A DNA stretch of 48,818 bases from Bacteroidales bacterium. GTDB lineage: Bacteria; Bacteroidota; Bacteroidia; Bacteroidales; F082. A program made the position numbers and the translations under genes. Shown here piece by piece: positions 5,818-34,056 of the stretch; positions within the stretch are counted from its first letter, which is position 1, and each line of letters starts with the position of its first letter. The notes under the pieces were generated by a model. It was not told the origin of the DNA. It made no database searches and was given only the letters and a program-made list of their open reading frames with translations. The stretch spans positions 1-48,818 of the forward strand of contig JAEETH010000021.1 of the NCBI GenBank assembly GCA_016290215.1. The letters are read 5' to 3'.

Positions 5818-5857
5818 GTTGTATGGTTTAAATAATGATAACCCATCAAAAGGGCTG

Positions 5858-5923: not shown

Positions 5924-5959
5924 AAAAAACAAGAGGCACCCATCTTGGATGCCTCTTGT
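5924..5959 (-). terminator. Rho-independent terminator after the long C25 protease
   Basis: A perfect 10-bp stem (ACAAGAGGCA with TGCCTCTTGT) around an 11-nt loop is followed on the minus strand by a run of T. It sits 21 nt past the stop of the 5981-12553 gene, so the two proteases are probably separate transcription units. Confidence 0.85.
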
Positions 5960-5980: not shown

Positions 5981-8900
5981 TCATTTCGTCGTGACAAACA
6001 CCACCTTGAAGCGGTTGGGAGCGTCGGTCGTGTTGGCTTCGAAGCTATAGCTCGCTGGTCCCTGAGCCTGTCGAAGGGCCAGCAAGTCAACATCCTCACC
6101 CGTCAGCATGTCAACGAGGTGCAGATAGCTGAACTCAACATTCTCGCTGCTGAAGCTCAGCGTGTAGGTGCCGTTCTCCTTAACCTTGAAGCTGACAGGC
6201 ATCTCTCCTGCTCCATTGGCACATACCACAGCATAGTCCTTGCCATCTTGCTGGATGAAGAGCTGGGGACTGTTGCCCTTGATTTGGAACTTGGGCAGTT
6301 GTCTGCCTTCGTCGAAGCGAAGAATGGCACGGTCAAGGACAGCGCTCCCTGAGCCTATCGAAACACCGCTAGTGAGATTAACAACGAGCCTCGAGCTCTT
6401 GGCAGGAGCCTCAGTGCTGAAGGTCAAGGTCTCGCCATCGGTGTTGGCGACAACGAAGACACCTTCCATAGGATTGATATAATCCCGTTCGGCGGGCACA
6501 ATCTCGCTGCCATTGTTCATCACATAGAAGTCACGATTGATGTAAGCGGTATCATTGAAAGGATTGCCCACTAAGTTCCAGCCTGCCGTTTCGGCATCAC
6601 TGGTCTTAGTTAGCGTGACCTCACCATTGCCGTTGTAAAGGCTGTTGGCAAAAGTAAGAACGACATCACTACTGTTGGCATAGAGGTAACCCTTGCCCGC
6701 AACAAGGTTTACGAATCCATTGTCGGGATTCTTGTAGTTGATCCATTCCAGCTCTTGGCTCTCATCGAAGGCGTAGAGGTCGTATGTATTGTCAAGCATG
6801 TGCTCCACCTCATCGGGAGAAACTACTCCGACCGGGAATGCAAGGAGATAATAGCCTCCGTCGGGGGTATAAGCATTGATTTCCTTAGTGAACTCCACAG
6901 CCTCGAAAGTGGTGAAGAATACGATGTCGCTCCATTCGGTTGTGTTGTCACCGCAAATTCCCTGCACTCTCGCACAATAAGCAGTGGCGGGGGTGAGACC
7001 TGTGAAGGTATGTTCGGCATTCCCAACAGTGACAGGATCTTCCCAGATGACCTCTAATGTTTTCATCTCTACATTGTCAATGGCAAAGTAGTCTCCAGCA
7101 GGATTCACGGAGCCATCCTTGGTGTAGGACCAGGTGAAAGTATGTTCGCCAGCAGTGACATCGTAGACGTAATGGTTCCAGCCACTGATGTTTGCACCAG
7201 CGGTGAGTTGTGTCGTCTCATCAATGACGAAGTCGCAATGATCCCAATAGGTATTTGTTCCTTCACCTTTACATTCGGCATCGAATTCGATTGTACCGTC
7301 CGCAGGGAAGGACATCGTAACCGAAATGCTGGATGTTGAATTTGTATAACCAGCATTGCTGCTTTGGATATGACCATTAACGACTATCCATGCATAACTG
7401 GAATTGTTGTCCCAATCGGAGGGGATTCCATTGTCAAAGCTCTCGTTAATTTGGAAAGCAGAATTACCCAACTGCACGACATAGCTATCGTTGTAATCAC
7501 CCCATGTCACCGTGGCTGCACTTGCCGTAATGTCGTTGACTTCCACATTCTGAGGAATCGGGCAGGCATCAAGAGTTGTGATGGTGATGGCGTTGCTCAA
7601 CAGGTTTTCGTCGCAAGCGGGACGCACCATAATCGTATATTGGGTTTCGGGTTCAAGTCCCTCCAAGATGAAATCTTCGTTGGTGTCGGCTTCGACGGCA
7701 GTGCCGTTATAAATCACATACCATTGTTCGGAAATGCCGTACTCTGCCCAGCTCAACCTAACAAAGTCGGGGCCGACTTCCGTGGCAGTGAGCTGCGAGG
7801 GAGCCATACAATCGGTAAACGGTTCTTTGGTGATACGGAGTTGGTTCTTCACCGAAAGCACATCATGATACTCCGTACTACCAGAGTTACCATAAGAGGT
7901 CGGAGGCATCATCGGATTGTAGATTATCCCATCGGAATAGGCATAAATGGCCTGACTCGGAGCATCGAACACGAGGCAGGACATGTGAGGTGAAGAAGTA
8001 TAAGCCGTGTTTTTATTGGTCACAAGGACGACATTGGAAGTGCCATCGTACGCAAACGGAGTGCTAAACACAATGGTTGTCCAATCGTTGGCAACCATGA
8101 CGACCCTGCCGCTGAACACCTTGTCGGCTTCAGTCACAGCTTCCCAGTCGGTATCGCTTGAGAATAGGGCTTTTTCTGTGGGTTTCATGTAGAACTCGTA
8201 GTCGAGGGTTTTCTCGGCACCACCGTTAAAGAAGGCGATGCTGGTGATAAGGCCTGCATCACCCAATTCTTCCGGAGTGTAAATCTGCTCGGTAAGGGAA
8301 TTGTTGTAATAGTTGTAGCTCGGAAGGTAAGAGTTCGTTTCATCACCGCCGCCGATTACGTCGCCCGTGGCAAAATGGGCCACCAGATTCACGTCGTTTT
8401 CAACCACGAAGGAATAGGTAGCAGATGTGGAAACCACCACTCCATCAATCGTCCAATTCAAGAAGTAATAACCCATGGCTGGCAGGGCGGTCAAAACGCA
8501 AGTTTGGCCATACGCATACTCTCCAACGCCCTCCACCGTACCCGCATTGGCAGGATTGACGCTGGCCGAGACGTAGAGACTACCAACAAAGTTGGCCACC
8601 AAGTCCCTATCATCGTTGACCACGAAGGTATAGGAAGCTTCTGTGGATACCACTTCATTGTTTATGGTCCAGTTAATGAAAGTAAAGCCTTCGGCAGGCT
8701 CGGCATTAACCGTACAACTCTCGCCTAACCCAAATTCACCGCCACCGCTCACAGTACCACCATTCGTAGGATTAGCGCTGACAGTAATGTTGAATTGTTC
8801 TGACGGTATAGGCTCTTTTGTTATCATGATTTGGTTCTTCACAGCCAAAACCGCTCCCGTGTAGCTCGTGGGAGCATACGGGTCGTAGTCGTCGTTATCT

Positions 8901-11900
8901 CTGTAAGCGCGGAGAGCTTGGCTTGAGGCGTCAAACACACGACATGTCATGTGAGGTGAGCTGCTATAGTCACCCGTATTATCATCGGCCACCAACACCA
9001 CATTGGAAGCGCCAACATAGACGAACGGTGTGGTGAAGGTAATGAACGTCCATTCATTAGCAGCCATGGTCACCTCACCGCTGAACACCTTGTCGGCTTC
9101 GGTCACAACTATCCAATCGGCAGAGCCAGTGAAAGAGTCTTTCTCCGTAGCCTTCATAAAGAAGTCATAGGTACGGGTCTTCTCGGCACCACCATTATAG
9201 AAGGCAATACTGGTAATGACTCCTGGCTCACCAAGTTCTTCAGCAGTGTATATCTGCTGCGTGAGCGAATAGTCATAGTAGCTATAGCTCGGAAGGTGTT
9301 CGAGTACCGAATTGCCTCCGTCGCCGATCATGGTGCCTTCAGCAAAGTGAGCCACCAAGTTCATGTCGCTGTTGACGTTAAAGGTATAAGATATGGAAGA
9401 AGAAATCACCTCGCCATTTTGGGTCCAATTGATGAACATAAAACCATCGGCAGGCGTGGCAGTCACGGTGCAGGGTTGTCCAAAACTGAACTCTCCCCCA
9501 CCACTGACGGTGCCTTGCTCGGTATTGCTTGAAGTGGCAGTAACTGTAAAGGTCTGTGAAGCGAAGGCACAATTGCAGTCAAATTCATAAAGCACCCCCG
9601 AATTAGGATTGGTGCCTTGTGCCATTTCATAGATGGTCAAGTTGCCTTCATAACTCATAGTGAACGAGCATTCACCATCGTAAGAACCTTTAATCCAAGT
9701 AAGGGTGACATGGACTCCATTGCCAATCTCCAAGTTGTAGGTTTTCGGAGATTCTCCCGAAGCAACGGTCAAATTCTCATCAGGAGAGCCATCATCGAAG
9801 CTGACTTTTAACGTGGCGTTCCCGTCCCAACCGTCATTGAATTTGTCTTCCAGTACAAAGACTACATTACAAGCGTTCTTTAACGTCTCGTTGCCTTGTG
9901 CGTTGAGGCCGCCATTGGCAGTCATCGCGAAAGTAACAGGAATTTGGGCCGTCTCAGGGCAGTTGGCCGCAATGGTGACATTGAATTGGCATGAGACTTC
10001 TTGATTCACCCCAACAGTGCCGACATTAATCGACGAGTTATTGATTGTAATATAATCGCTGCTCGAAGTCATCGTAGCCTCGGCATTGGTGGCTTGGTAA
10101 TGACCTGTGTTCTTGAACTTGGCGGTCAAAGTGAGGGTCTCGCCAGGAGTAAAGCCGCCGTCCCATGTCATTCCTGCATATTCCAACACGGCTTCGTTGG
10201 CGGTAACAACGATATTGCCCTCGTATGTTTCGCCATCATTGACGGCTTCATAGTGCAAAGTGACGTTGGTGCCATCAGCCACACCCGAGTTGATATGGAA
10301 TGAGAAGCCACTCACAGTGGTGTTAGCATTGGCTGCCAAAACACCGAAACTGCCGTTTTCGCTGTTAAAGGTCACATTAGGATCTGAGGAAGATAAAGTG
10401 ACGGTAGTATTACCAGTGGTGGCAGCAGTACCCACGTTCTTGAAAGTGATGCTCAGGTCAGTGTCTTCGCCAACATGGGCAGCAGTGGGAGTATAGCTCT
10501 CAACCGAGATATAGGCGCCTTCAAGGGCTGCAGCGGGAACAGTTGCAATATAAGGGATACGCTGGGGAGCAGTCACGCAAATGGTGACATCGCCACCAGA
10601 AGTAACAGGAGTAATCTGCACCTGAGCCGTTCCATTGGAGCCCACCAAAGCAGTGCCAAGAAGCACACCATCCTTGCTAATGGCCACGTAGGAACCCGGA
10701 ACAGCATTCACCTCGTAAGTGTCCATGCCGATGGGAAGGATATTCATGTGGCTAACATTGTTAGCAGTAGGCTGCACACGGTAGGGCATGATGGAACCAT
10801 CGCCAATCACATGGTAAGCCTGCCAGTAATAGAGTGTTTCGCTGTGAAGCTCATATCCAAGGGCTCCTGCGGCGTTGCCAGCAAGAAGGCCGACGTAAAG
10901 AATGGAATTGACAGTGTTATACACATCATCCATCCAGATGGCGTCGTAGATGCCCATGCCCGTCTCCTCGTAGGAAGGCATGGTGCCGTCAGCACGGTTG
11001 GTCGGGCCAACGCCAAAGTAATAGTCGTTTTTCCAAGTCGTGTTGGGGCAGGATCCAATATAGGCGTAAGCACCTTTGTTCTCTGCACGCACCATGGCTT
11101 CACCAAAACAGGTTGTGCTATAACCCCAGTCACCCGACTGGCAGCAGTTGCCGATGGCAAGGAAGTACTTGTGTGCATTGGTCAGGTTTTGCACATTATT
11201 AACATTGAATTCAGGGTCAGCCCAGCTGGTCTTGCTGCCATGAGCGGTATAATTGGCAAAACCCACACCTGAGCTCAGCGGAGCGTAGCAATTGGTGTAG
11301 TCGCCATGGCTGAACTCATACACGTTGTCGAATCCATGTTCAGCGTTGTAATAATAGTTGGTGGCGTACCAAATGGTGGGACGACCTACGGTGACACCCC
11401 AGCCGCTGTCAGCACCAGCGATGAGGAGCACATTGTTCAAATAGCTCGGGTCGGGCATGGTGTATTGCTCATATTCCAAGGCTTTGTTAAGAATGGCGGT
11501 CATCTGCTCCGTGGTCTCGGCTGAGATACGGCTATGATACATATCAACGAACTCATCGCCATCAACGCTTGAATAATAAAGGTCGGCGACGCAATTGGTC
11601 TTACTGGCAGAAGTAACGCTGGGTGCCACTTGGTCCTTGTCGCCCATGATGATGAGGAAAGTAGGCGCGTCTTGGGTATATTTGTTTTGGATGAAGCTCT
11701 TGATGGCATCGGCACTTGTGCCAATATTATCGGTGTAGTTCACATCCACATAGATACCCTTCATGGTCTTCCATGCCACCCAATCCTGGATGCAATTCTC
11801 GAACATACGGTTGGCAATGACCAACATCTTCACGGGAGCTTGCCAGAGGTCGGGGTGGTCTTCATAAATCCCCCTGATGGCACGACCATTAAACAGCTGT

Positions 11901-12553
11901 TTGTAAAGGACATCGAAATAGGGGCTGTAGGTTCTTACCAACATATCTTCAGTGGCACGAGCATCAGCACCTTCGAAAACGACTTCAACCTTAATGTCGT
12001 TAAACACACGGATTTTGTTGTTCACTGGGTCGTAACTCACCGGCTCGATGCTCATTCTACCCACCTGAACGCCACGCATGGTGCCGTCGACACTCACTCT
12101 TGCCAAAGGCTCCGAACGGAGACCACGCGTCTGATAGGCGGCCTCATTATAAACGAATGGCGTGTCTTCACTTTTACGCACATTGGGCTGACGAGGTGAC
12201 AGACGGTGGATGCCGTATTCCTCAAGGTCGTAGTCCACAGTAGAATAGCTGGTTACACGGATACTTGGTGTAGCACCAAAAGGCACCGCGATGAGTTGGT
12301 TCACGACGGGAATCTGGGGCGCACCTTCATCGCCGCCAATGACCGTGTTGGGCATGGTGAGCGTTGAAAAAACGCCACGCTCACTTTGCAGTTCCGTAGC
12401 CTCAAGGCCAGAGAACGAGAACGCAGCCTTAAGGCTTGAGTAATCACTCTTTACACATTCAGCTTTGTCGACCGAACGCATGCTAATCTTGGTTTGTCCA
12501 AAGGCAGAAGTACCCAATAGGCAAACCAACAAAAATACAAAATACTTTTTCAT
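5981..12553 (-). CDS. Giant gingipain-like C25 cysteine protease with adhesin and repeat modules
   Basis: Secreted C25 endopeptidase of 2190 residues. Signal peptide 1-20 (ends GTSAFGQ); propeptide to about 235; catalytic domain about 240-600 with His438 (YTAHGSKTSW) and Cys470/471 (AIGNCCQSG), matching the gingipain pattern; Ig-like domain; CARDB-like modules; three InlB-type repeats (cores NWTQNGEVIS, NWTINNEVVS, NWTIDGVVVS); two YLPS/HLPS...QIYT modules; an FN3 domain starting CMAPSQLTA; a second FN3 split by an inserted cleaved-adhesin-like domain (INESFDNGIPSDWDN); the GWNLVGNPFND domain; and a C-terminal beta module ending ANTTDAPNRFKVVFV. That end is a common tail in Bacteroidales secreted proteins and may act in export. 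Two R1 repeats lie in frame near the C-terminus (GVSIGSGS about 2063-2070; LRQAQGP about 2158-2166). Likely role: degrading host or dietary protein with adhesion. Confidence 0.93.
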   Translation of the reverse strand: MKKYFVFLLVCLLGTSAFGQTKISMRSVDKAECVKSDYSSLKAAFSFSGLEATELQSERGVFSTLTMPNTVIGGDEGAPQIPVVNQLIAVPFGATPSIRVTSYSTVDYDLEEYGIHRLSPRQPNVRKSEDTPFVYNEAAYQTRGLRSEPLARVSVDGTMRGVQVGRMSIEPVSYDPVNNKIRVFNDIKVEVVFEGADARATEDMLVRTYSPYFDVLYKQLFNGRAIRGIYEDHPDLWQAPVKMLVIANRMFENCIQDWVAWKTMKGIYVDVNYTDNIGTSADAIKSFIQNKYTQDAPTFLIIMGDKDQVAPSVTSASKTNCVADLYYSSVDGDEFVDMYHSRISAETTEQMTAILNKALEYEQYTMPDPSYLNNVLLIAGADSGWGVTVGRPTIWYATNYYYNAEHGFDNVYEFSHGDYTNCYAPLSSGVGFANYTAHGSKTSWADPEFNVNNVQNLTNAHKYFLAIGNCCQSGDWGYSTTCFGEAMVRAENKGAYAYIGSCPNTTWKNDYYFGVGPTNRADGTMPSYEETGMGIYDAIWMDDVYNTVNSILYVGLLAGNAAGALGYELHSETLYYWQAYHVIGDGSIMPYRVQPTANNVSHMNILPIGMDTYEVNAVPGSYVAISKDGVLLGTALVGSNGTAQVQITPVTSGGDVTICVTAPQRIPYIATVPAAALEGAYISVESYTPTAAHVGEDTDLSITFKNVGTAATTGNTTVTLSSSDPNVTFNSENGSFGVLAANANTTVSGFSFHINSGVADGTNVTLHYEAVNDGETYEGNIVVTANEAVLEYAGMTWDGGFTPGETLTLTAKFKNTGHYQATNAEATMTSSSDYITINNSSINVGTVGVNQEVSCQFNVTIAANCPETAQIPVTFAMTANGGLNAQGNETLKNACNVVFVLEDKFNDGWDGNATLKVSFDDGSPDENLTVASGESPKTYNLEIGNGVHVTLTWIKGSYDGECSFTMSYEGNLTIYEMAQGTNPNSGVLYEFDCNCAFASQTFTVTATSSNTEQGTVSGGGEFSFGQPCTVTATPADGFMFINWTQNGEVISSSISYTFNVNSDMNLVAHFAEGTMIGDGGNSVLEHLPSYSYYDYSLTQQIYTAEELGEPGVITSIAFYNGGAEKTRTYDFFMKATEKDSFTGSADWIVVTEADKVFSGEVTMAANEWTFITFTTPFVYVGASNVVLVADDNTGDYSSSPHMTCRVFDASSQALRAYRDNDDYDPYAPTSYTGAVLAVKNQIMITKEPIPSEQFNITVSANPTNGGTVSGGGEFGLGESCTVNAEPAEGFTFINWTINNEVVSTEASYTFVVNDDRDLVANFVGSLYVSASVNPANAGTVEGVGEYAYGQTCVLTALPAMGYYFLNWTIDGVVVSTSATYSFVVENDVNLVAHFATGDVIGGGDETNSYLPSYNYYNNSLTEQIYTPEELGDAGLITSIAFFNGGAEKTLDYEFYMKPTEKALFSSDTDWEAVTEADKVFSGRVVMVANDWTTIVFSTPFAYDGTSNVVLVTNKNTAYTSSPHMSCLVFDAPSQAIYAYSDGIIYNPMMPPTSYGNSGSTEYHDVLSVKNQLRITKEPFTDCMAPSQLTATEVGPDFVRLSWAEYGISEQWYVIYNGTAVEADTNEDFILEGLEPETQYTIMVRPACDENLLSNAITITTLDACPIPQNVEVNDITASAATVTWGDYNDSYVVQLGNSAFQINESFDNGIPSDWDNNSSYAWIVVNGHIQSSNAGYTNSTSSISVTMSFPADGTIEFDAECKGEGTNTYWDHCDFVIDETTQLTAGANISGWNHYVYDVTAGEHTFTWSYTKDGSVNPAGDYFAIDNVEMKTLEVIWEDPVTVGNAEHTFTGLTPATAYCARVQGICGDNTTEWSDIVFFTTFEAVEFTKEINAYTPDGGYYLLAFPVGVVSPDEVEHMLDNTYDLYAFDESQELEWINYKNPDNGFVNLVAGKGYLYANSSDVVLTFANSLYNGNGEVTLTKTSDAETAGWNLVGNPFNDTAYINRDFYVMNNGSEIVPAERDYINPMEGVFVVANTDGETLTFSTEAPAKSSRLVVNLTSGVSIGSGSAVLDRAILRFDEGRQLPKFQIKGNSPQLFIQQDGKDYAVVCANGAGEMPVSFKVKENGTYTLSFSSENVEFSYLHLVDMLTGEDVDLLALRQAQGPASYSFEANTTDAPNRFKVVFVTTK
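6057..6080. repeat. R1 dispersed repeat, in frame in the C25 protease
   Basis: GGTCCCTGAGCCTGTCGAAG plus GGCC, a full R1 unit. It is translated as LRQAQGP inside the C-terminal module, between DLLA and SYSFEANTTD, where it looks like a clean insertion. The same unit occurs near 15.5, 19.2 and 20.5 kb. Confidence 0.8.
6344..6365. repeat. Degenerate R1 repeat, in frame in the C25 protease
   Basis: CTCCCTGAGCCTATCGAAAC resembles R1 with a few changes. It is translated as GVSIGSGS, the same frame that gives STGSAT in the MurL-MurD protein. Confidence 0.5.
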
Positions 12554-15476: not shown

Positions 15477-15546
15477 GGGGCCTTCGACAGGCTCAGGCAC
15501 CCTTTATTTTCGCAAAAACCAAGGTCCCTGAGCCCGTCGAAGGGCC
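15477..15546. repeat. Inverted pair of R1 repeats
   Basis: Two R1 units in opposite orientation (15477-15500 GGCCTTCGACAGGCTCAGGC and 15523-15546 GGTCCCTGAGCCCGTCGAAG) flank 22 nt. Transcribed, they would form a stem of about 22 bp with few mismatches. It lies between two genes of the SPFH operon and could act as an attenuator or RNA-stabilising hairpin. Confidence 0.7.
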
Positions 15547-18936: not shown

Positions 18937-18972
18937 ACAAAAAAAAGACGAGTTCACTCGTCTTTTTTTGTT
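18937..18972. terminator. Bidirectional terminator between M48 protease and murL-murD
   Basis: Stem AAAAAGACGAG / CTCGTCTTTTT with a TTCA tetraloop. On the minus strand it overlaps the end of murL-murD: the stem encodes the last residues KKDE and the loop contains the TGA stop. Confidence 0.85.
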
Positions 18973-21881
18973 ATAGCAAACTGCTCTGCCAAAGCCTTGA
19001 ACTTTCGCCCGCGCTCTTCAAAGTTTTTGTATTGGTCATAACTGGAGGCCGCTGGCGAGAGCAGGCAAACATCGCCGGGCTTGACGTGGGAGGCAATGTA
19101 GGCGAAGGCTTCTTCCATTGAAGAATAATAGAACAAGGTCGGCCCTTCGACAAGCTCAGGGACCTGAATTTCTGACTGCCGCTTTGCGTCATTGCGAGGA
19201 ACGAAGCAATCCAGTTGAGTTGGCCCTTCGACGGGCTCAGGGACCTTGGTTTTACAGGTCGCTGAGCCTGTCGAAGCGCTGTCTATCAAGGACATCATCC
19301 TCTCCCCTGCTTTTCCCGTAAATAAAAGGTAGGGAACAGGATGTGCTTTCAGATACTCCGCCAAAGGCTGGTAGTCAATGCCACGGTCGAAGCCGCCGAG
19401 CAACAAGAAATCCACCCGACCTAAGGCTTCACAAGCTGAAATGGCCGCTTGTGGGATGGTGGAAATGCTGTCGTTGACGAAAGCCACGCCATCGAAGGTG
19501 CCGACGGGTTCCAAACGATGTTCCAAAGGCCTGAAAGTGTATAGATAGGGTATTAATTCATGGTAATCCACGCCGTAGGCATCACAAGCCAGCAGTGCAG
19601 CCTTGACATTCAAAAAGTTGTGTTCGCCTTTTAACGGCAATGCCGTGCGGTCGATAAAGCCATCTAAATCGTTTAGCGAGAACACCTTAGATTGCTTCAC
19701 TTCGTTCACAATGACGCTATGCGCGTCGTGGAGCAAAGTCTCGTGGATGACAGCGATGTCGTCCTCACCCATGAAACGCAAAAGATTGAGTTTGGCTGCT
19801 TTGTATCGCTCCATTGTGCCGAAGTGGTCAAGATGTTCCTCAAACACATTGAGCAGCACACCTACATGCGGACTGTTATGCACATACTCCAACTGATGGG
19901 CAGAGAGTTCATATACCACAATGGAATCGGGCTTGATGTCTTCCATCACATCGAAACAAGGAATGCCGATGTTGCCCGTAAGAATGGCATCGCGCCCCGA
20001 AGATTTCAGCAGATGATAAATCAGGCTCGTAGTTGTGCTCTTGCCTTTGGTGCCCGAAATGCCGATGGTTTGCTCGTGAAACTGGCTGAGAAACAGGTCG
20101 GTCTGCGAGGTTATCTCCACCCCTTTCGTGTCGAAATCTATCAACGAAATGCCAGGAGTCTTGATGACGATGTCATAGTCGTACATGGCCTCAAGATAGC
20201 CTGGGCCAAAATATTGCACAGCCTCCATCTCATTTTTATCAGCAACGGCCACATCAGCATCAGGCAGGTATTTGTTCAGAAAAGCCAATGTCGACCTGCC
20301 CTCCCTGCCAAAGCCAAGGATAAGGATGCGCTTGCCGCGTAAACGATTCAGGATTTTGTCTAATCGATTGTCCATGTCATTCCTATCAAGGGTTGAGGGA
20401 CGGAAGGAATCTATAGGCTGTCGATTAGACAATGCATTTTTTAGGATTCGCTCAAACTTCTCAGGCAAGAAATGATTGGTGTTGAAACGGTTTAGAATCT
20501 CTTCTACGGTCGGCCCTTCGACGGGCTCAGGGACCTTAATTTCTGACTGCCGCTTTGCGTCATTGCGAGGAACGAAGCAATCCAGATGATTCGGCCCTTC
20601 GACCCTTCGAGGGGCCTCAGGGACCGCAGGCTCAGGGACCTCGGTTGTTGCAGTAAGACAGGCTCTTACTTCTTCCACAGTGCCCACACATTCAAAAGGC
20701 TTCACTGGCGCGGTGCCATTCAATTCCTCTAAAATAGGTTGCAAACTTGTATCAGCCATCAAGTCCTTACCGAAAATAGCCGTCAGCTTCTCCCGTGAAA
20801 GGAAAGGCGACAGGATAATCCATGTAAACAAGCACTTGGGGCAATGGCCGCACCACGAGTCGGTTTTGCTGCCCACATTGCAGCTACGGAACACGGGGTG
20901 ATAAGCCTCACATTGGGAGAATAATTTTGCAATCTGCAACTCGCTCAAGGGGCGCAAAAAACTGAAATACTGCACTTCGTCGCTTAGGTTCTCTGCAACA
21001 TAGCTTCTGAAATCGCGCTCAAACTCAATGGATTTGCTGTATTGGTGATTAATGTTTGTCCCTGGCACCGTCGACTCGTTGGCACTGTTTTCATTCGACA
21101 AAGCAATGTATTTCGAGCGGCTACCGAAGGCCACCAAGATGCTGATAAACGCCAGCAAGGCCGAGAAAGGCGTATGACCATTCAAATAGCCTTCCGCATT
21201 GAGTTTCAACATGGTCGGGTCGAGGGTGCGATTGACGACGATAAATTCATCATCCTTGTAACCCGCTATTTTAACACAGTTTAAAGTCGCTCCACGAGGA
21301 TTCACAATCATCGGAATGACAGGCATCTCGTTGCGCAGACATTCCATCGTGACAACAGAGTCTTTGCCCCCCCCTATGGGAACTAAAGTGCGTTCTTCAA
21401 ACTTGACGCTGCCCATAGATTCCATGCCATCGCACGTCCTTTGCTGGAATGACATGGGCAGCTGCGGTGACTCTATCTCCATCAAGTCGTCTTCCGAGAC
21501 CGTGATGCTATTTAAATAAAGAAACTCACCCAATCCATTGTAATACAATTTCTTCCAAAACATTTTTTGTTTTTCCGTCAAGGCAAACGGCTTCACCACC
21601 ACCCGCTTCGGACAAGCAATTTTCCAATAACTTACCAACTCGGTCATGCCGATTTGGAAAGCCAAGGCCTCCAATTGACCCTCAGGAATACTATCCCAAT
21701 CGAAAAAAAGCCTCGCAGGAATCTCCAAAGTGGGCCGAAAATAATAGCGGTCGTCAAGGTTGAAGTCGAAAGCCAAATGCAAAGCTCCGTTTTCCTTTTT
21801 CACGGTTTGCTTTTCGAAAACAAAGGTCGAAAACTCCTTGCGCAAGGCATCAAACTTGGATTGATTGTCGGTTCGTTTCAA
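18954..21881 (-). CDS. MurL-MurD fusion: UDP-MurNAc-L-Ala-L-Glu epimerase and glutamate ligase
   Basis: 975 residues, two enzymes in one chain. Residues 1-408 resemble MurL, the ATP-dependent epimerase described in Xanthomonas that turns the terminal L-Glu of UDP-MurNAc-L-Ala-L-Glu into D-Glu: PIGGGKDSVVTMECL (169-183), LSNENSANESTVPG (261-274), and a Cys cluster C334/C344/C347/C350 (SWCGHCPKC). Residues 504-975 are MurD: LGFGREGRS, P-loop GTKGKST (610-616), NVFEEHLDHF, LLGGFDRGIDY, LSPAASSYDQYKNFEERGRK. By analogy with MurD2, the ligase half should add L-Glu and the epimerase half correct it. R1/R2 repeats are translated in the linker (about 415-458), at about 721-731 (VIVNEVKQS) and in the C-terminal domain (about 868-915). 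The start codon appears to be TTG (stop codon upstream in frame, no nearby ATG), with a leader of about 17 nt. Confidence 0.85.
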   Translation of the reverse strand: MKRTDNQSKFDALRKEFSTFVFEKQTVKKENGALHLAFDFNLDDRYYFRPTLEIPARLFFDWDSIPEGQLEALAFQIGMTELVSYWKIACPKRVVVKPFALTEKQKMFWKKLYYNGLGEFLYLNSITVSEDDLMEIESPQLPMSFQQRTCDGMESMGSVKFEERTLVPIGGGKDSVVTMECLRNEMPVIPMIVNPRGATLNCVKIAGYKDDEFIVVNRTLDPTMLKLNAEGYLNGHTPFSALLAFISILVAFGSRSKYIALSNENSANESTVPGTNINHQYSKSIEFERDFRSYVAENLSDEVQYFSFLRPLSELQIAKLFSQCEAYHPVFRSCNVGSKTDSWCGHCPKCLFTWIILSPFLSREKLTAIFGKDLMADTSLQPILEELNGTAPVKPFECVGTVEEVRACLTATTEVPEPAVPEAPRRVEGPNHLDCFVPRNDAKRQSEIKVPEPVEGPTVEEILNRFNTNHFLPEKFERILKNALSNRQPIDSFRPSTLDRNDMDNRLDKILNRLRGKRILILGFGREGRSTLAFLNKYLPDADVAVADKNEMEAVQYFGPGYLEAMYDYDIVIKTPGISLIDFDTKGVEITSQTDLFLSQFHEQTIGISGTKGKSTTTSLIYHLLKSSGRDAILTGNIGIPCFDVMEDIKPDSIVVYELSAHQLEYVHNSPHVGVLLNVFEEHLDHFGTMERYKAAKLNLLRFMGEDDIAVIHETLLHDAHSVIVNEVKQSKVFSLNDLDGFIDRTALPLKGEHNFLNVKAALLACDAYGVDYHELIPYLYTFRPLEHRLEPVGTFDGVAFVNDSISTIPQAAISACEALGRVDFLLLGGFDRGIDYQPLAEYLKAHPVPYLLFTGKAGERMMSLIDSASTGSATCKTKVPEPVEGPTQLDCFVPRNDAKRQSEIQVPELVEGPTLFYYSSMEEAFAYIASHVKPGDVCLLSPAASSYDQYKNFEERGRKFKALAEQFAITKKDE
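19141..19280. repeat. R1-R2-R1-R1 repeat cluster inside murL-murD
   Basis: R1 at 19141-19164, R2 at about 19172-19214 (TTTGCGTCATTGCGAGGAAC then GAAGCAATCC), R1 at 19222-19245, and a partial reversed R1 at 19257-19280. All are in frame and translated as SASTGSAT, KVPEPVEGPT, QLDCFVPRNDAKRQSE and VPELVEGPT, inserted in the MurD C-terminal domain between LIDSA and the FYYSSMEEAF strand. Confidence 0.85.
19690..19717. repeat. Short R2-like repeat inside murL-murD
   Basis: GATTGCTTCACTTCGTTCAC AATGACGC resembles the R2 core in the other orientation. It is translated as SVIVNEVKQS in the MurD central domain, in an otherwise family-like stretch. Confidence 0.6.
20512..20624. repeat. R1-R2-R1 repeat cluster in the MurL-MurD linker
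   Basis: R1 at 20512-20535, R2 at about 20542-20585, then a rearranged R1 at 20592-20624 followed by another partial unit (CAGGCTCAGGGACC). The R1-R2 part is nearly identical to 19141-19214, including the spacer bases (TTTCTGACTGCCGC). Translated as EAPRRVEGP, HLDCFVPRNDAKRQSE and KVPEPVEGPT, it makes up about half of the linker between the two enzymes. Confidence 0.85.
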
Positions 21882-21954: not shown

Positions 21955-22545
21955 ATGGATTTAGGAGAAAAGTTTGTCATAAGGAGCAATTCATTGGACC
22001 CGAAACAAGGTAACATCTTGATTTCAGAGCCTTTAATGAACGACTTCCATTTCGGGAGGTCGGTCATTCTGCTCATTGATCACATCGAATCCGAAGGCAG
22101 TTTCGGCATCATCATCAACAAACAGTTGAACGCTATTGTCAGCCAGATTGTCGACGATTTCCCCGATTTTGACGCGGCGGTATATCTCGGCGGTCCCTTG
22201 GCCGAAGGTCAGCTTTTCTTTATCCACACCTTGGGCGACCTCATTCCCGATTCTTCTCCCATCATCGACGGCTTGTACTGGGGCGGCGATGTGGAGACCC
22301 TCAAGACCCTAATCGCCACGGGCATTGCCAACGAGGAGAACACCCGCTTTTATTTGGGTTATTCGGGTTGGGATGCCGGACAATTGGTGAGCGAGTTGGT
22401 GCACAATTCATGGGCTATCAGCAATATCACCGTCGAACAATACCTCAACACACCACCTGAACACATGTGGTCGACTTTTGTCCAACAATTGGGCAAACCT
22501 TACGAAATGTGGAACCGTTTCCCGAAGAACTTTGCGGACAACTGA
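21955..22545 (+). CDS. YqgE/AlgH family protein
   Basis: 196 residues, the full length of the YqgE/AlgH family. Motifs: GNILISEPLMNDFHFGRSVI (the family's N-terminal strand pair), GSFGIIINKQLN, VYLGGPLAEGQLFFIH, LYWGGDVE and FYLGYSGWDAGQLVSEL. The biochemical role of the family is not settled; AlgH has been linked to regulation in Pseudomonas. The start MDLGEKF is kept because the conserved GNILISEP strand begins at residue 19. It is divergent from murL-murD, with only 73 nt between start codons, and convergent with the metallophosphoesterase gene, whose stop codon directly abuts its own. Confidence 0.93.
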   Translation: MDLGEKFVIRSNSLDPKQGNILISEPLMNDFHFGRSVILLIDHIESEGSFGIIINKQLNAIVSQIVDDFPDFDAAVYLGGPLAEGQLFFIHTLGDLIPDSSPIIDGLYWGGDVETLKTLIATGIANEENTRFYLGYSGWDAGQLVSELVHNSWAISNITVEQYLNTPPEHMWSTFVQQLGKPYEMWNRFPKNFADN

Positions 22546-23463: not shown

Positions 23464-24158
23464 TTTTTAGGTTTCCAAATCAGTCCAACATTGCCAAACC
23501 AGCCGTTGTATTGTGCCGAAAGATTGAGCACACCGCTGGGATGCAGGCCAGCCTCGGCAGTCAAACGCAAACCATTGCCAAAGTCGTAATAGCCGTTCAC
23601 GCTATAGAAAAACAAGGTGACCCGCTCGATGACGAAGTCACGATAGTTGGCAATTCGCGCACCCAAATTCCAGGGATGCTCTTGGTCAAAAATATTGCCT
23701 TCCGCACAGAAAGTGACATTCATCGGTTCAAACACCACATCCATGCCACCGTTTTTGCGCAACGGGATCGGAGCCGTAAAACGATTCGTCAAACCCAACT
23801 GAAAGTTGAAATGCCGGTTGCGCCAACCCAAGTCAAGCAAAGCATTGAATTCCTGCAAGTTGTAGCTCGGAAACAGACGGTACAGATAGCGGTTCTCCAA
23901 ATAAAGTGTGCCGCATTTTGCCTTCAACAGGTTCACCTGATATTGAAGGTTCAAGGAATAACGACCTAAGGTTGTGGCTTGTATGCCCAACCCCATGTTA
24001 AAATTGTCGGCAAATTGATAATTGCCCATCAAAGCTAAGGAAGCGCTGCTACCCGATGTACGCGTGTAATCGTACTCGCCGTAAGTTCGCAAAGTCCACT
24101 GCGCCCTTGCGGTTACAGCACCTAACAAAAGTCCAATAATAATGATAATTCTCTTCAT
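23460..24158 (-). CDS. Outer-membrane beta-barrel protein
   Basis: 232 residues from the ATG at 24158 (MKRIIIIIGLLLGAVTARAQ signal peptide); the frame is open to 24182 but the extra 8 residues spoil the signal. The mature protein is a series of amphipathic strands with many aromatics (LRTYGEYDYTRTSG, YSLNLQYQVNLL, LYLENRYLYRLFPSYNLQ, HFNFQLGLTNRF) and ends in a strand GWFGNVGLIWKPKK. This is typical of small barrels of Bacteroidota; no specific family recognised. It is the first gene of an operon with the metallophosphoesterase and has a promoter at 24180-24187. Confidence 0.7.
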   Translation of the reverse strand: MKRIIIIIGLLLGAVTARAQWTLRTYGEYDYTRTSGSSASLALMGNYQFADNFNMGLGIQATTLGRYSLNLQYQVNLLKAKCGTLYLENRYLYRLFPSYNLQEFNALLDLGWRNRHFNFQLGLTNRFTAPIPLRKNGGMDVVFEPMNVTFCAEGNIFDQEHPWNLGARIANYRDFVIERVTLFFYSVNGYYDFGNGLRLTAEAGLHPSGVLNLSAQYNGWFGNVGLIWKPKK

Positions 24159-24179
24159 TGGTTTGGTTGAATTAAAGTG

Positions 24180-24187
24180 CAAAATTA
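24180..24187 (-). promoter_or_regulatory. -7 promoter box for the barrel/phosphoesterase operon
   Basis: Minus strand reads TAATTTTG then CAC, about 22 nt before the ATG at 24158. Confidence 0.55.
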
Positions 24188-24231
24188 GTGAAAAGTCAAA
24201 TGCAATAACGAGAAATAGACCTAAAAATCTC

Positions 24232-24239
24232 TATTTTTG
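24232..24239 (+). promoter_or_regulatory. -7 promoter box for the T9SS repeat protein
   Basis: TATTTTTG followed by CAACC, about 23 nt before the ATG at 24262. It rules out the longer open frame starting at 24142. Confidence 0.65.
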
Positions 24240-24261
24240 CAACCAACAAATAACAATAAAA

Positions 24262-27117
24262 ATGCGTATTTTTACCAAAAATCTTTTCATACTGTTCATA
24301 TTCAGTATGTTGACAACAAACCTTTTTGCCCAATACGGAGCTCAAGTCGACAATAGGGGCTTCGAACAATGGACCTCACGTGGAGAAGTATCCGTTAGTG
24401 AACCCGTGCATTGGCACTCGGGCGGCACTGCAACGGGCAGCTATTCGGGATGGGTCGACAGCCAAATCGAAAGTTCCACCCATGTACGACCAGGCTCCAC
24501 AGGTAGCAAGAGTGTCAGACTGTATCCTGAACGTGTTTTGGGCGTCACAGCCAATGGTAATTTGACCAACGGCCGTATGAATGCAGGCAGCATGTCAGCT
24601 TCAGGCTCGGGCAACTATAACTATACCCAGCGTTCCCAAAGTGCCTACAACACGCCCTTCAACCAACTCCCCGACTCCCTTTCGGTATGGGTTTGCTTCC
24701 GCAGTCAAAGCTCCACCGACAAGGCTCAAGTGAAAGCTATTGTGCATGGTGATGCCGATTACAAATCGATTGCCGATGGCACAGGGGAACCCGCTAATAT
24801 GCATGTGGCAAGTGCACTATCAGCGTTTACTCGTACCTCTACGGCAAACGGTGCATACACTTGGCGTCGTCTGAGCATCCCGTTCCAAAACAACGGCCCT
24901 TGCACTGATCCTCGCTATATCCTGTTTTCCATAACCACCAACCAAACGCCAGGCTCGGGTGGCAGCGATGATGACCTGTATCTCGACGACATTCTGTTGG
25001 TTTACAATCCAACGCTAACGATGGGGCAATTAGCTTACAACACTTTCTATCAAGGCGACCCCATTTCCATCCCCTTCACGCTGACGGGCACCATGTCGCC
25101 CGACAACCTCAATGCCTCAGCTAATGTGGTCATCGCCCAGATGTCGGATGCCAACGGCAATTTCAACAATCCCACAGAACTCGGTCGTGTCACCACGAAT
25201 ACTAACGGCAATATCGTAGCGCACATCCCTAATGTGGCGGCCGGACAGTATATGGTTCGGGTCATTTCGACCAACTACCCCATGGTGGGACAAAACATCC
25301 AATCGATTTCCGTCGTCAACCTCACTTACCTCATTTCTGCCTCAGCTAATCCAAGCGAGGGCGGAACGGTGAGCGGTGCTGGCGAATACGAGGAAGGTGC
25401 ATCCTGCACATTGACAGCGACCGCCAACCCTGGCTTTACCTTCACCAATTGGACGGAAAACGGCAATGTGGTGTCAACAAATGCCAGCTATACATTCAAT
25501 GTTGTGGACAGCCGCAACTTAGTGGCTAACTTCTCACTCAACACACACACGGTCGCAGTGTCAGCTAATCCCGCAAATGGCGGCACCGTCACAGGCGGCA
25601 ACACCTATAACTATGGCCAAAGCTGCACCGTGAGTGCTACGGCTGCCACAGGTTACACCTTCACCAACTGGACCGAAAATGGTAGCGTGGTTTCTACCGA
25701 TGCTAACTATACCTTCACGGTAAATGCCAATCGCAACCTGGTAGCCAATTTCACCCTCAACACCTACACCGTTGCAGTGTCGGCTAATCCCACCAATGGC
25801 GGCACCGTAACAGGCGGAAACACTTACAACTATGGCGAAAGCTGCTCCGTGAGCGCCACGGCTGCCACTGGTTACACCTTCACCAACTGGACCGAAAATG
25901 GTAGCGTGGTTTCTACTGATGCTAACTACACCTTCACGGTAAACGCCAATCGCAACCTTGTGGCCAATTTCACCCTCAACACCTACACCGTTGCAGTGTC
26001 GGCTAACCCGACTAATGGCGGCACCGTCACAGGCGGCAACACCTACAACTATGGTCAAAGCTGCACCGTGACCGCTATGGCTGCCACGGGTTACACTTTC
26101 ACCAACTGGACCGAAAACGGCAGTGTGGTCTCCAACAACGCCAATTACACCTTCTCCGTAGAGGGCAACAGAAATCTCGTCGCCCACTTTACGGCCATTA
26201 CGTATACCATCACAGTCACTGCCAATCCGAGTAACAGTGGCTCGGTCACGGGAGGAGGCACCTACAACCATGGTCAATCCTGCACCGTCATCGCCACCTC
26301 GGCAGATGGTTACACTTTCTTGAATTGGACTGAGAATGGCAGCGTGGTCTCTAACAATGCCAACTATACCTTTACGGTGACGAGCAACCGCTCGTTGGTG
26401 GCGCATTTCGAGGAACAAGCCCCCGACACCTATAACATCAATGTCTCCCCCAACCCGAATATCGGCGGCACAGTGACAGGCGGCGGCAGTTACGAAGAAG
26501 GTCAGCAATGCAATGTGACAGCAACGGCCAACACGGGCTACACCTTTATCAATTGGACTGAGAATGGCGATGAGGTCTCCACGGAGGCAAGCTACAGCTT
26601 CATTGTTGCAGGCAATCGCAACCTTGTGGCCAACTTCACCCTCAACACCTACAACATCACCGCAATGGCCGACCCAAGCGACGGCGGCATTGTGACCGGC
26701 ATGGGCAGCTACAGCCATGGCGAATCCTGCACCTTGACGGCAATATGCAACGAAAACTACACCTTTGTCAACTGGACTAAGGATGGCGTCGAGGTCTCCG
26801 CTGATTCCTGCTTTACCTTCATTGTGACCGCGACTGAGGAATATGTGGCGCATTTCCAATTCGTCGATGATGTGGAAGAGAAATCGATTATGAGCGAATT
26901 ATTCCCCAACCCGTTCACCTCTTCGGTGAGCATTAAGGCGGATAAGCCCATCAAGACCGTCAGTGTTTACGACATCTATGGCCATTTGGTGAAAGTTCAA
27001 AACGTTTCGGGATTGGAAACCAAAATCGACTTGAGCGAATTGAACATTGGCACCTATCTATTGCAGCTGGATTACGGCGACAGCAGAAGCGTACAACGCA
27101 TCGTAAAGATGAAGTAA
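24262..27117 (+). CDS. T9SS cargo protein: PCMD-like domain, seven InlB-type repeats, sorting tail
   Basis: 951 residues. Signal peptide MRIFTKNLFILFIFSMLTTNLFA. Residues about 24-255 resemble the PCMD (putative carbohydrate metabolism) domain: NRGFEQWTSRGE near the start and DDDLYLDDILLVYN at the end. A linker domain follows, then seven InlB-type repeats of about 72 residues (about 355-875), each with core SANPxxGGTVTGG, CTVxATAxxGYTFTNWTENG and RNLVANF. Repeats 2-4 are almost identical. The last about 75 residues are a type A T9SS sorting domain: ELFPNPFTSSVSIKADKPIK, VSVYDIYGHLV, NIGTYLLQL, RIVKMK. The protein is therefore expected on the cell surface, probably as a carbohydrate-binding or adhesive protein. 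The same NWT...VVS repeat occurs in both C25 proteases. Confidence 0.88.
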   Translation: MRIFTKNLFILFIFSMLTTNLFAQYGAQVDNRGFEQWTSRGEVSVSEPVHWHSGGTATGSYSGWVDSQIESSTHVRPGSTGSKSVRLYPERVLGVTANGNLTNGRMNAGSMSASGSGNYNYTQRSQSAYNTPFNQLPDSLSVWVCFRSQSSTDKAQVKAIVHGDADYKSIADGTGEPANMHVASALSAFTRTSTANGAYTWRRLSIPFQNNGPCTDPRYILFSITTNQTPGSGGSDDDLYLDDILLVYNPTLTMGQLAYNTFYQGDPISIPFTLTGTMSPDNLNASANVVIAQMSDANGNFNNPTELGRVTTNTNGNIVAHIPNVAAGQYMVRVISTNYPMVGQNIQSISVVNLTYLISASANPSEGGTVSGAGEYEEGASCTLTATANPGFTFTNWTENGNVVSTNASYTFNVVDSRNLVANFSLNTHTVAVSANPANGGTVTGGNTYNYGQSCTVSATAATGYTFTNWTENGSVVSTDANYTFTVNANRNLVANFTLNTYTVAVSANPTNGGTVTGGNTYNYGESCSVSATAATGYTFTNWTENGSVVSTDANYTFTVNANRNLVANFTLNTYTVAVSANPTNGGTVTGGNTYNYGQSCTVTAMAATGYTFTNWTENGSVVSNNANYTFSVEGNRNLVAHFTAITYTITVTANPSNSGSVTGGGTYNHGQSCTVIATSADGYTFLNWTENGSVVSNNANYTFTVTSNRSLVAHFEEQAPDTYNINVSPNPNIGGTVTGGGSYEEGQQCNVTATANTGYTFINWTENGDEVSTEASYSFIVAGNRNLVANFTLNTYNITAMADPSDGGIVTGMGSYSHGESCTLTAICNENYTFVNWTKDGVEVSADSCFTFIVTATEEYVAHFQFVDDVEEKSIMSELFPNPFTSSVSIKADKPIKTVSVYDIYGHLVKVQNVSGLETKIDLSELNIGTYLLQLDYGDSRSVQRIVKMK
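25330..26860. repeat. Seven tandem 216-nt coding repeats
   Basis: Units of about 72 codons start near 25330, 25546, 25762, 25978, 26194, 26425 and 26644. Units 2 to 4 share long identical stretches (ACCTTCACCAACTGGACCGA AAATGG). The rest have diverged mainly at synonymous and surface positions. Recent expansion or gene conversion of the middle units is the simplest reading. The array also opens a long frame on the opposite strand (25561-26859), which is not a gene. Confidence 0.85.
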
Positions 27118-31122: not shown

Positions 31123-34056
31123 CTATTTCGTCAGTTCTTGATACAGCTTAAACAACGCCGCCACCACCTCATTCTCCGACATTTTAAGGTCGAATCCGTA
31201 TGCTTGCATTACTGCGGCATCGTTGGCGCGATGGGCTTTCAACAGTTCTGGAAACAGGATAAGATGGCTGTACATATCAGCAAATGACGCTTCGGAATAC
31301 TTTTCACGAGCGTCCAAAATGGCTTGCGCCGTTTGTTCAATCTTTTGACGCTGTTGTTCCGACACTGAAGGCCAAGGGAAGTTGTTGTAAACGATGTCCT
31401 TGGAATACCGATAATCTGATTTCAACCTTCCGCAAACAACGCGCATCCATGCGTTATGGACCAATGAAGTCAAAATACCGAAATGATAAAGGGTAGCATT
31501 GGGAACTAACTTTACCGCATTGCTACATAAGACCTCTGGAGTCATGAATCCAATTGGTATATACTCGCGTCTTTCTGAAGATGTTTCAGGTATCAACAAA
31601 TAATTGCTCTTCGGCATGTTCTCGACATGAAAATGCGTTGGCCTATCAGCCAATTTGACCGTTCCTGGGCTTGAACTCGCAAGACGATATTGCCTAACCG
31701 CCTCAATCCGTTTCATACATTCAGGCAATTTGACCAATTCCACAGGGTTGGCATCGCCAAGCCATAGGCACCAGCGAGGTCGGCGATTGATGAACTCATC
31801 AGAACCATACCAACGCTTGAAGTATTTCGCCGCCCCTGGCTCTTTCCTGACAAACTCTTCTTTCTCGTCATCTTTAAACAAATAGAAACCTCCGTCAATA
31901 GGTTTGTTTCCAATGCCAATCTCAGGCACATCGCAAATGGGATGCTGACGGCTTTCCACAAACACATTGTCACCATCAATCAGATAGCCATTGATATTAT
32001 CGGCTTCAATAATCTTATCCCCTTCATAGATTCTCTTTTTGCCATTGGCATGACAAGTCGAAAAGCCAACAACAACACAATGAACATGCGCTTTTTGTGA
32101 GGCTTCGCTGTCCCAAATGAATGTCCGCCAAGCAAAGTCGATGTGTACACCAACTTCCATCAAAGGTTTCCAAAGATTGGCCACCTGCTCGCCTTGAGTG
32201 ACAGAGTTGGTGGAAACAAGGGCCGCATGAAGCTTAGGGTTGACCTGCATCAAAAACGAAGCCTTTCTGTACCAACCCGTCACATAATCCATATTACCGA
32301 TGTTTTTCCATTTCGGGCCAAACACCGAAACCAAGTCGTCCTTCTGTTCGGCAGACATGATGCGGGCACCAAGAAACGGCGGATTGCCAATGATATAGTC
32401 AAACTCTACATAACGGGTTCTCCTAATTTTGTCCACTCGATGAATGGAAGGACTATGAAGTTCAATCGTCCCATACTTAACCTCGGGTTCGCTTGCGACA
32501 ACAGAAGAAGTCTCGTGAGGCAAATACTGATGGATATAAACCTCATCGGCATAAACGGTGGTCATATCTTCAGGCTCTTCCCACACCGACCAATCCATCC
32601 TCAAGGCGTTGCCTTCCTTGATGTTAGTGTATTTTTTCAATGGTAGCGGATCGATAATGAAGCCCACTATCTCGTCGGTCTCTTGCAACATCTGGCTTTC
32701 GGCAATCCAAAGGGCGGTTTGGGCTACAGCACATGCAAAATCGTTGATCTCAATGCCATAAAACTGGTTGATGCTCACCTTGATAGGGTCGGCCATCTCG
32801 CCGATGATACGGTCGCTACCGTATATAATTCGCAAGGTCTCATTCTCAAGGCGACGTAACGAGGTGTAGGATTCAGTCAAGAAGTTGCCCGAACCACAAG
32901 CCGGGTCGAGGAACTTCAGCGATGCCAATTTGTTTTGGAAGGCAAGTGCCTTTTCTTTCTTGGCCTTGGCTACGGTTGTAGACTTGATGCCGGCTAGTTC
33001 CGCCTTCAGGTCGTCCAAAAATAATGGGTCGATGACCTTGTGGATGTTCTCAATTGAGGTGTAGTGCATCCCTCCCACTCGGCGCGTTTCAGGATTCAAG
33101 GTGCTTTCAAACACGGCCCCGAAGATGGTGGGCGAAATCAGGCTCCAGTCAAAATCGTCTGAGGCTCGCTGGAGAATAAGCTCTCGAATCTCCTCGTTGA
33201 TGCGCGGAATCTCGATGTCACCAGCAAACATGCCGCCATTGACGTATGGAAATGCCATCAGCTTTTCGTCCATATATGGGTCACGGTCTTCGGGTTGGGT
33301 GTCTAACACATGGAATAATTCTATCAACTTCGTCCTAAAGTCGTTCGCCTGAAACTGCGCCATGTAGTCATGGAACATATTCTTGTTTCCAAAGATGCCT
33401 GCATCTTCAGCATAGAGGCAGAACACCAAACGGACACACAGTTTGTTGAGGGCTTTTTGCGATTCCGGATTACTTAGGTCTTTGTATTGGGCGAGAATCT
33501 TATCGTACAACACACCGACAATCTCACCCGCCTTGATGCTGACCTCCAACTCTTTTTTGATATGGGCATTGGCATCATCCACCAAAAAAGCCAAACGATG
33601 ATAATCCTTCTCCAAATCAGCCAATTGAATCACTTCCGGCGTATCGTTGGGGTGTTCCATGTCATGCACTTCAAAAGTGGTGAAGTTGCAAGCCACAATC
33701 CAACGGGGCGCCATCGACAGGGGCAATCCCGTTGCATAACGACGGGCTTGTTGGTATGGCGTCAACTCGGCTCCGTCGCTTTGTTTGGCTTTGGCAGTGA
33801 GGTCGACATGCGAGCCTTTCTGCTCAATCAAGACCTTGGTGACAGCGATATAAGCATCTATGAAGTCCGAACCTTTTTCCTTTGTGATGGTTTTCACAGG
33901 GATTTCAAACTGCATCCATGCCATCGGGTTGTCGATGCCGAAGACATTATGCAGTAATTCTAACCAAAAACGCTGGGTCTCACCTTTCTCATAACCCTTG
34001 CCCGTCCAGTCTTTCACAAACTGCTTTGCCGCTTGTTTCTGTGTAGTTTTCGCCAT
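31123..34056 (-). CDS. MmeI-type (type IIL/IIG) restriction-modification enzyme
   Basis: 977 residues with nuclease, methylase and target recognition in one chain. The N-terminal domain carries a PD-(D/E)xK-like motif: Asp67 with Glu78-Gln-Lys80 (FIDAYIAVTKVLIEQKGS), as in MmeI. Helical region about 180-340. Adenine methyltransferase: motif I FLDPACGSGNF (382-392), FYGIEINDFACAVAQTALWI, and motif IV IIGNPPF (555-561). The target-recognition region follows (about 620-860) and a helical C-terminus. It cuts at a distance from a short asymmetric site and methylates one strand in related enzymes. No separate R, M or S gene lies nearby, consistent with a solitary type IIL enzyme set between core genes. 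Both motif sets look intact, so it should be active. The promoter is at 34100-34107. Confidence 0.88.
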   Translation of the reverse strand: MAKTTQKQAAKQFVKDWTGKGYEKGETQRFWLELLHNVFGIDNPMAWMQFEIPVKTITKEKGSDFIDAYIAVTKVLIEQKGSHVDLTAKAKQSDGAELTPYQQARRYATGLPLSMAPRWIVACNFTTFEVHDMEHPNDTPEVIQLADLEKDYHRLAFLVDDANAHIKKELEVSIKAGEIVGVLYDKILAQYKDLSNPESQKALNKLCVRLVFCLYAEDAGIFGNKNMFHDYMAQFQANDFRTKLIELFHVLDTQPEDRDPYMDEKLMAFPYVNGGMFAGDIEIPRINEEIRELILQRASDDFDWSLISPTIFGAVFESTLNPETRRVGGMHYTSIENIHKVIDPLFLDDLKAELAGIKSTTVAKAKKEKALAFQNKLASLKFLDPACGSGNFLTESYTSLRRLENETLRIIYGSDRIIGEMADPIKVSINQFYGIEINDFACAVAQTALWIAESQMLQETDEIVGFIIDPLPLKKYTNIKEGNALRMDWSVWEEPEDMTTVYADEVYIHQYLPHETSSVVASEPEVKYGTIELHSPSIHRVDKIRRTRYVEFDYIIGNPPFLGARIMSAEQKDDLVSVFGPKWKNIGNMDYVTGWYRKASFLMQVNPKLHAALVSTNSVTQGEQVANLWKPLMEVGVHIDFAWRTFIWDSEASQKAHVHCVVVGFSTCHANGKKRIYEGDKIIEADNINGYLIDGDNVFVESRQHPICDVPEIGIGNKPIDGGFYLFKDDEKEEFVRKEPGAAKYFKRWYGSDEFINRRPRWCLWLGDANPVELVKLPECMKRIEAVRQYRLASSSPGTVKLADRPTHFHVENMPKSNYLLIPETSSERREYIPIGFMTPEVLCSNAVKLVPNATLYHFGILTSLVHNAWMRVVCGRLKSDYRYSKDIVYNNFPWPSVSEQQRQKIEQTAQAILDAREKYSEASFADMYSHLILFPELLKAHRANDAAVMQAYGFDLKMSENEVVAALFKLYQELTK

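Follow-up and report, generated by a model that had tools for sequence, protein, structure and literature searches.

We analyzed a 48,818-nt stretch of a Bacteroidales genome (GenBank assembly GCA_016290215.1, contig JAEETH010000021.1; hereafter the window), in which a single long gene encodes a MurL-type domain followed by a MurD-type ligase. Very probably, this fused MurL-MurD2 protein stands in for MurI in supplying D-glutamate (D-Glu) for the cell wall, and the older MurD of the division and cell wall (dcw) cluster has been cut back to its C-terminal domain, which is retained.

A single reading frame combines MurL-type and MurD-type domains

The frame runs for 975 codons without interruption and begins at a TTG codon. 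No ATG occurs in the four codons of frame ahead of it, and the N-terminus LKRTDNQ is common to several relatives, which fits a TTG start for the window protein (Table 1). The original prediction, made from the letters of the window, was of a MurL-like domain and then a complete MurD in one frame, and profile searches bore this out. The NCBIfam model NF041275 (MurL_Xanthmoales) aligned over nearly its whole length (positions 4-398 of 447) with a score of 246.7 bits, and TIGR01087 (murD) scored 309.5 bits, above its curated cut-off of 211.95; Pfam covers the Mur ligase part.

The GGGKDS motif and the cysteine cluster, both picked out at the start, are genuine features of the family: GGGKDS and C334, C344, C347 and C350 are invariant in 36 aligned homologues. 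Around 50 residues of the cysteine region match DUF6395 of Pfam, in the window protein with an E value of 0.002, under the Pfam cut-off, and in 33 of the 36 homologues, with a best E value of 4e-5. At GGGKDS there is a weak profile match to TtuA (E 0.06), which 4 of the 36 homologues also match; other weak matches among them are to QueC (5 of 36), NAD synthase (1) and WbuX (1). TtuA, QueC, NAD synthase and WbuX are PP-loop ATPases, so these matches agree with a PP-loop ATPase fold; such a fold would be in line with the adenylation step proposed for MurL in the available portion of PMC8788868 (see also PMC5808125, likewise as far as available). Another ATP-pyrophosphatase family had been considered as an alternative for residues 1-408 and was rejected: such matches are weak, and none is better than MurL.

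The MurD half carries the determinants of L-Glu preference

According to the accessible sections of PMC8788868, Glu197 and Arg358 of Xanthomonas oryzae MurD2 replace Asp182 and Lys348 of E. coli MurD and set the preference for L-Glu; the double substitution E197D/R358K turns MurD2 to D-Glu, and E. coli MurD with K319T accepts L-Glu. The MurD half of the window protein carries these published determinants, with isoleucine at the K319 position (Table 1). The same three differences from E. coli MurD (D182 to E, K348 to R and K319 to I) were found in all 111 MurL-linked MurDs aligned; 36 of these came from genome searches and 75 from contigs, with 11 genes present twice, leaving 100 distinct. Canonical Bacteroidales MurDs had Asp, Lys and Lys at 182, 348 and 319 in 38 of 38 cases, and the MurD2 set in none (18 from a first search, including G047 and G048 from MurL genomes, and 20 more from MurL genomes).

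Pro433 and Phe435 of MurD2 are absent: these positions are Ser and Tyr in the window protein, and Ala or Ser, and Tyr, in the MurL-linked MurDs. The mismatch is not decisive, because replacement of these residues (P433A and F435L) left the stereospecificity of MurD2 unaltered in the part of PMC8788868 available. On the basis of its specificity residues, the MurD half is predicted to be a MurD2-type L-Glu ligase, in keeping with the first suggestion.

MurL and MurI exclude each other across the order

If the route operates, MurI was expected to be missing, and it is: neither PF01177 nor TIGR00067 matched in the source genome (3.8 Mb in 153 contigs, 85% complete), and TIGR00067 matched in none of 36 genomes of its genus. 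Among 60 relatives, MurL was matched in 39 (E 0.001) and MurI in 17, with no genome matching both. Of the 39 MurL matches, 38 cover most of the model; that of G023 covers 52 positions only.

We then have a broader sample of 148 genomes taken evenly across the order Bacteroidales, which overlaps the 60 relatives. At thresholds of E 1e-10 for MurL and E 1e-20 for MurI, 50 genomes had MurL, 93 had MurI, none had both and 5 had neither (Fisher p 4e-34, a value overstated by kinship, as related genomes are not independent). The genomes with neither are G050, G107, G119, G146 and G154.

The model for D-amino acid aminotransferase, a second possible source of D-Glu, gave no match above cut-off in the 60 relatives. 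Matches below the cut-off occur in 56 of the 60, in relatives with or without MurI, and the sole match in the source genome is weak and under the cut-off.

Fusion is a derived form of a conserved murL-murD2 locus

We compared gene order around murL in relatives found by scanning named genome contigs with a MurL alignment. The scan gave at least 573 confirmed relatives, and the best 80 were retained. In these, murL and murD2 are adjacent on the same strand in 73 loci and fused in 5, and 2 have no MurD. The position of murL beside yqgE, remarked on in the original prediction, recurs in 65 of the 80. The loci are titled Bacteroidales, Bacteroidia, Bacteroidetes or Bacteroidota, apart from Marinifilum (L157), Candidatus Colimorpha (L158, L179) and one 'uncultured bacterium' (L166), and many of the isolate names indicate rumen or gut samples.

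Fused frames occur in six genomes of the genus (G000, G019, G021, G024, G028 and G031) and outside it also in G111 (885 aa) and G136 (949 aa). Among the best 80, the five fused loci include three that are the same genes as those of G021, G024 and G028; the other two, L164 and L170, form a lineage of their own. The fusions of G111, G136 and L164/L170 share 42-46% identity with one another and with the fused genus members, so fusion is likely to have occurred on several occasions.

The unfused state was compared in four members of the genus: their murL stop overlaps the murD2 start in ATGTTTGA, with the two frames differing. In fused members ~20-30 extra residues separate the MurL tail from the former MurD2 start, and this insert unites the frames; in the window it is SNRQPIDSFRPSTLDRNDMDN, and it is absent from the four unfused relatives. 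Within the genus, fusion would have arisen from overlapping murL-murD2 genes once such an insert had united both frames. Since the fused state is derived and in the minority, the pathway does not need whatever channelling it may allow.

A fused frame might nonetheless yield two proteins, with MurD2 begun at an internal methionine of the junction insert. A methionine does stand just ahead of the old MurD2 start, as NDM in five fused members of the genus and as HDM in the sixth, G024, and separate genes are the usual state. We regard this reading as unlikely, since the frame crosses the junction without a stop in the six fused genomes of the genus, as well as in three or more further lineages (G111, G136 and L164/L170).

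In the source genome, the dcw murD is reduced to a C-terminal domain

The dcw cluster of the source genome, on contig L010, reads murE, mraY, a 188-aa frame, ftsW, murG and murC. The 188-aa frame matches the C-terminal (amino-acid-binding) domain of canonical MurD alone, about residues 279-450 of solved MurDs. Unlike canonical MurD, it has no UDP- or ATP-binding domain, beginning after the P-loop ATP-binding domain, and the residues that contact D-Glu are mostly lost. The expectation that the source genome would hold no second murD thus stood in part: no full-length copy was found in this 85% complete assembly, but the C-terminal fragment is present in the dcw cluster. No comparable truncated MurD turned up in the literature searched, which lacked most subscription papers.

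The short form is the rule in the genus. Of 37 genomes, 33 have a readable locus, and all 33 carry a short frame open for ~176-190 aa; unread are G002, G003 and G006, where mraY was not found, and G027, where the contig ends before mraY. One genus member, G023 (97% complete), has the short form but no full match to MurL, MurD or MurI, which reflects either an assembly gap or a true loss.

Among the 50 MurL genomes of the order survey, 23 have the short form: 22 identified with the A2 model and by reading the loci (in G040 the ftsW neighbour was seen but not mraY, as the contig ends there), plus a divergent form in G103. A further 24 have a full-length or contig-cut MurD (21 read with both neighbours, G180 included; G047 nearly full; G085 and G136 contig-cut). 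The other 3 are unplaced or lost, with no mraY match in G055 and G156 and a broken dcw cluster in G109 (L260), in which an unrelated gene follows mraY. Among the 93 MurI genomes, 20 of which were read with neighbours, there was no verified short form: 91 have MurD frames of at least 436 aa, G178 has its MurD at a contig edge and G157 has no match. The short form is thus found in 23 of 47 MurL and 0 of 92 MurI genomes (G178 counted among the latter; Fisher p 1.5e-13, with the same caution about kinship). Short MurD pieces in G178, G041 and G136 all lie at contig ends and were rejected as true truncations.

The retained domain is under purifying selection and was left by repeated truncation

The short forms start at or near one methionine, found at the same aligned column in 44 of 48; 35 of 40 full-length canonical MurDs have it too, within motifs like MTLEELALQGKHN. 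The 48 short forms have largely lost residues that touch substrate or nucleotide in E. coli MurD: K348 is kept in 13, T321 in 14, K319 in 19 and N271 in 7, whereas D317 and two tryptophans are kept in all 48, R302 in 43, and the residues of an SP motif in 47 each.

The domain is under purifying selection. The ratio of nonsynonymous to synonymous substitution (dN/dS) had a median of 0.217 and a maximum of 0.42 in a first clade (15 chosen genomes; 91 of 105 pairs, retained for a proportion of synonymous differences, pS, under 0.70), and a median of 0.136 in a second (21 pairs, 7 genomes). Values for mraY, ftsW, murG, murC and murE are lower, at 0.06-0.14 and 0.04-0.11 in the two clades.

Of 89 genomes gathered, 88 (68 MurL, 20 MurI) were placed on a tree of five dcw genes, in which those with short and those with full-length MurD are interleaved. 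FastTree and maximum-likelihood topologies alike imply 13 truncations, on the assumptions that loss is irreversible and that the root lies among MurI genomes, and with G136 excluded. Collapsing weak nodes lowers the count to 10 for FastTree support of 0.95, and to 11, 7 or 5 for support of 90, 95 or 99 in the Shimodaira-Hasegawa approximate likelihood ratio test (SH-aLRT), scored on the best topology of an unfinished IQ-TREE run. The interleaving leads us to reject a single ancient truncation unless transfer restored full-length genes; the tree uses genes around the murD locus and so leaves room for transfer of the whole cluster.

The leftover could instead be a decaying pseudogene, or a mere spacer for translation of ftsW. 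Several observations lean this way: the loss of ligand residues (K348, T321 and N271), a dN/dS somewhat above that of neighbouring genes, a MurD-model match in the source genome that extends a few codons upstream of the 188-aa frame across two TGA stops, and the overlap of the leftover frame with that of ftsW in many loci. They are outweighed by an uninterrupted frame at each of the 33 loci read in the genus, a dN/dS of at most 0.42 across 91 pairs, the invariance of D317 and the two tryptophans, and retention of the domain after 5 to 13 separate truncations. We therefore consider decay or spacing improbable, and on the grounds of conservation and dN/dS we reject a plain murD pseudogene in the source genome.

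Around the internal methionine of full-length murD the AT fraction is 0.71, against 0.56 at other Met codons, and A occupies position -3 at a frequency of 0.66, against 0.33; short-form starts have values of 0.76 and 0.57. This A-rich context is confounded by the encoded residues; it is suggestive, and a nested product from the internal methionine of full-length murD is possible. We give about even credence to a reading in which the C-terminal domain serves the mraY-ftsW junction in a second role that needs no catalysis, perhaps as the product of that conserved methionine, and in which this role was unmasked wherever MurL/MurD2 freed the rest of MurD, with the catalytic part lost repeatedly at the same place. 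Our favored guess for the job is a scaffold in a MraY/MurG/FtsW complex, because the domain is encoded between mraY and ftsW and because MurG of Thermotoga reportedly binds MurD (PMC6420597, in the part available). A link between the domain and MigC was considered and rejected; the MurD region mapped in the accessible part of PMC12208494 is residues 53-103, which lie outside the C-terminal domain.

A proposed route to D-Glu and the evidence that weighs against it

We propose that the window protein joins both steps of the MurD2/MurL route and that this route has replaced MurI. The MurD2-type domain would add L-Glu, and the MurL-type domain would then epimerize this terminal residue to D-Glu, with an adenylate formed at GGGKDS as the probable intermediate. 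D-Glu would then no longer be joined as a free amino acid, and for this reason the UDP- and ATP-binding domains of the dcw MurD would have become dispensable and could be lost. Its C-terminal domain would have been retained as a separate protein, most likely non-catalytic, for instance in contact with the MraY/MurG/FtsW machinery encoded by its neighbors.

Several points count against this proposal. The window protein falls short of the curated equivalog cut-off of NF041275 (700 bits), which was reached in none of the 148 order genomes; as judged by its score, the MurL half is better described as a MurL-type homologue than as a member of this Xanthomonadales model. The source genome is incomplete, and the methionine at the junction (NDM) could still begin a separate MurD2. 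A full-length dcw MurD is retained in about half of the MurL genomes even though they lack MurI. Loss of catalysis in these proteins was looked for and not seen: the 22 read (those of G047 and G048, and 20 of one set) keep their catalytic residues bar N271, which is Asp in 2 of the 20. Some use of D-Glu may persist in such genomes, and D-Glu salvage would explain why a full-length MurD is kept without MurI (for example in G047, G061 and G062).

That the MurL-type domain acts on another substrate, with D-Glu supplied by a side activity such as that of DapF and with the MurD half an ordinary D-Glu ligase, would accord with the missed NF041275 cut-off and with the ability of Chlamydia DapF to racemize glutamate (available part of PMC5885031), but it is highly improbable given the L-Glu determinants in every MurL-linked MurD, the strict exclusion of MurL and MurI in 148 genomes, and the adjacency or fusion of murL to murD2 in 78 of the best 80 loci.

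Relation to known systems

The MurD2/MurL route is known from some Gamma- and Alphaproteobacteria and rare actinobacteria (PMC8788868, as far as available). The two activities that we predict from sequence are those of X. oryzae MurD2/MurL (XOO_1320/XOO_1319; Feng 2017, as described in the same source), with which the Bacteroidales system shares the L-Glu determinants Glu and Arg and the lack of MurI. It differs in forming a single chain with MurL first, in its host, in having Ser/Tyr for P433/F435 and in the orphan C-terminal MurD domain that its dcw cluster still encodes. Mur-enzyme complexes, MurE-MurF and other Mur fusions are known (accessible sections of PMC6420597). The Bordetella MurE-MurF fusion described there likewise places two consecutive Mur steps on one polypeptide, although it unites two ligases, whereas the window protein would unite a ligase and an epimerase. 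In the literature searched, which lacked most subscription papers, neither a MurL-MurD fusion nor a MurL from Bacteroidota was reported.

Features of the fused gene and its surroundings

Table 1. Coordinates of the fused gene, its features and related loci (window positions unless a contig is named).
Feature	Position	Strand	Remarks
murL-murD2 fusion gene	18954..21881	(-)	975 aa, TTG start
MurL-type epimerase domain (predicted)	20631..21842	(-)	residues 14-417; NF041275 E 3.4e-73
GGGKDS, PP-loop-like ATP motif	21357..21374	(-)	residues 170-175
Cys cluster C334, C344, C347, C350	20832..20882	(-)	
In-frame dispersed repeat, MurL tail	20508..20603	(-)	94% identity over 96 nt to 19137-19232
Junction insert (approximate)	20366..20430	(-)	joins frames; absent from 4 unfused relatives compared
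MurD2-type ligase domain (predicted)	18984..20330	(-)	residues 518-966; TIGR01087 E 4.4e-92
Glu at E. coli MurD D182 position (MurD2 Glu197)	19836..19838	(-)	alignment to E. coli MurD
Ile at E. coli MurD K319 position	19464..19466	(-)	alignment to E. coli MurD
Arg at E. coli MurD K348 position (MurD2 Arg358)	19383..19385	(-)	alignment to E. coli MurD
In-frame dispersed repeat, second copy, inside MurD C-terminal domain	19137..19232	(-)	
yqgE (AlgH-like), divergent neighbor of murL	21955..22545	(+)	PF02622 E 7e-39
Orphan MurD C-terminal domain, 188 aa	L010:8687-9253		dcw cluster, between mraY and ftsW

The fused gene contains two in-frame copies of a dispersed repeat. Its 21-nt core, GGCCCTTCGACNNGCTCAGGG, occurs 94 times in the source genome (0 times for the reversed control), including window positions 15526-15546 and 6060-6080. 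Related VPEPVEGP stretches are present in the MurL tails of several relatives.

Elsewhere in the window, two large adjoining genes for C25 (gingipain-type) peptidases share repeats (724-5943 and 5981-12553), a 991-aa frame at 24142-27117 holds five repeat copies, the first four of which begin 219 nt apart, and an MmeI-type restriction-modification enzyme is encoded at 31123-34056.

Implications

The presence of MurL in 50 of 148 surveyed Bacteroidales genomes extends to gut and rumen lineages, and inhibitors of MurI would be expected to miss these MurL-bearing Bacteroidales. The repeated reduction of MurD offers a natural experiment that separates the catalytic activity of this enzyme from a possible structural role in a Mur/divisome complex.

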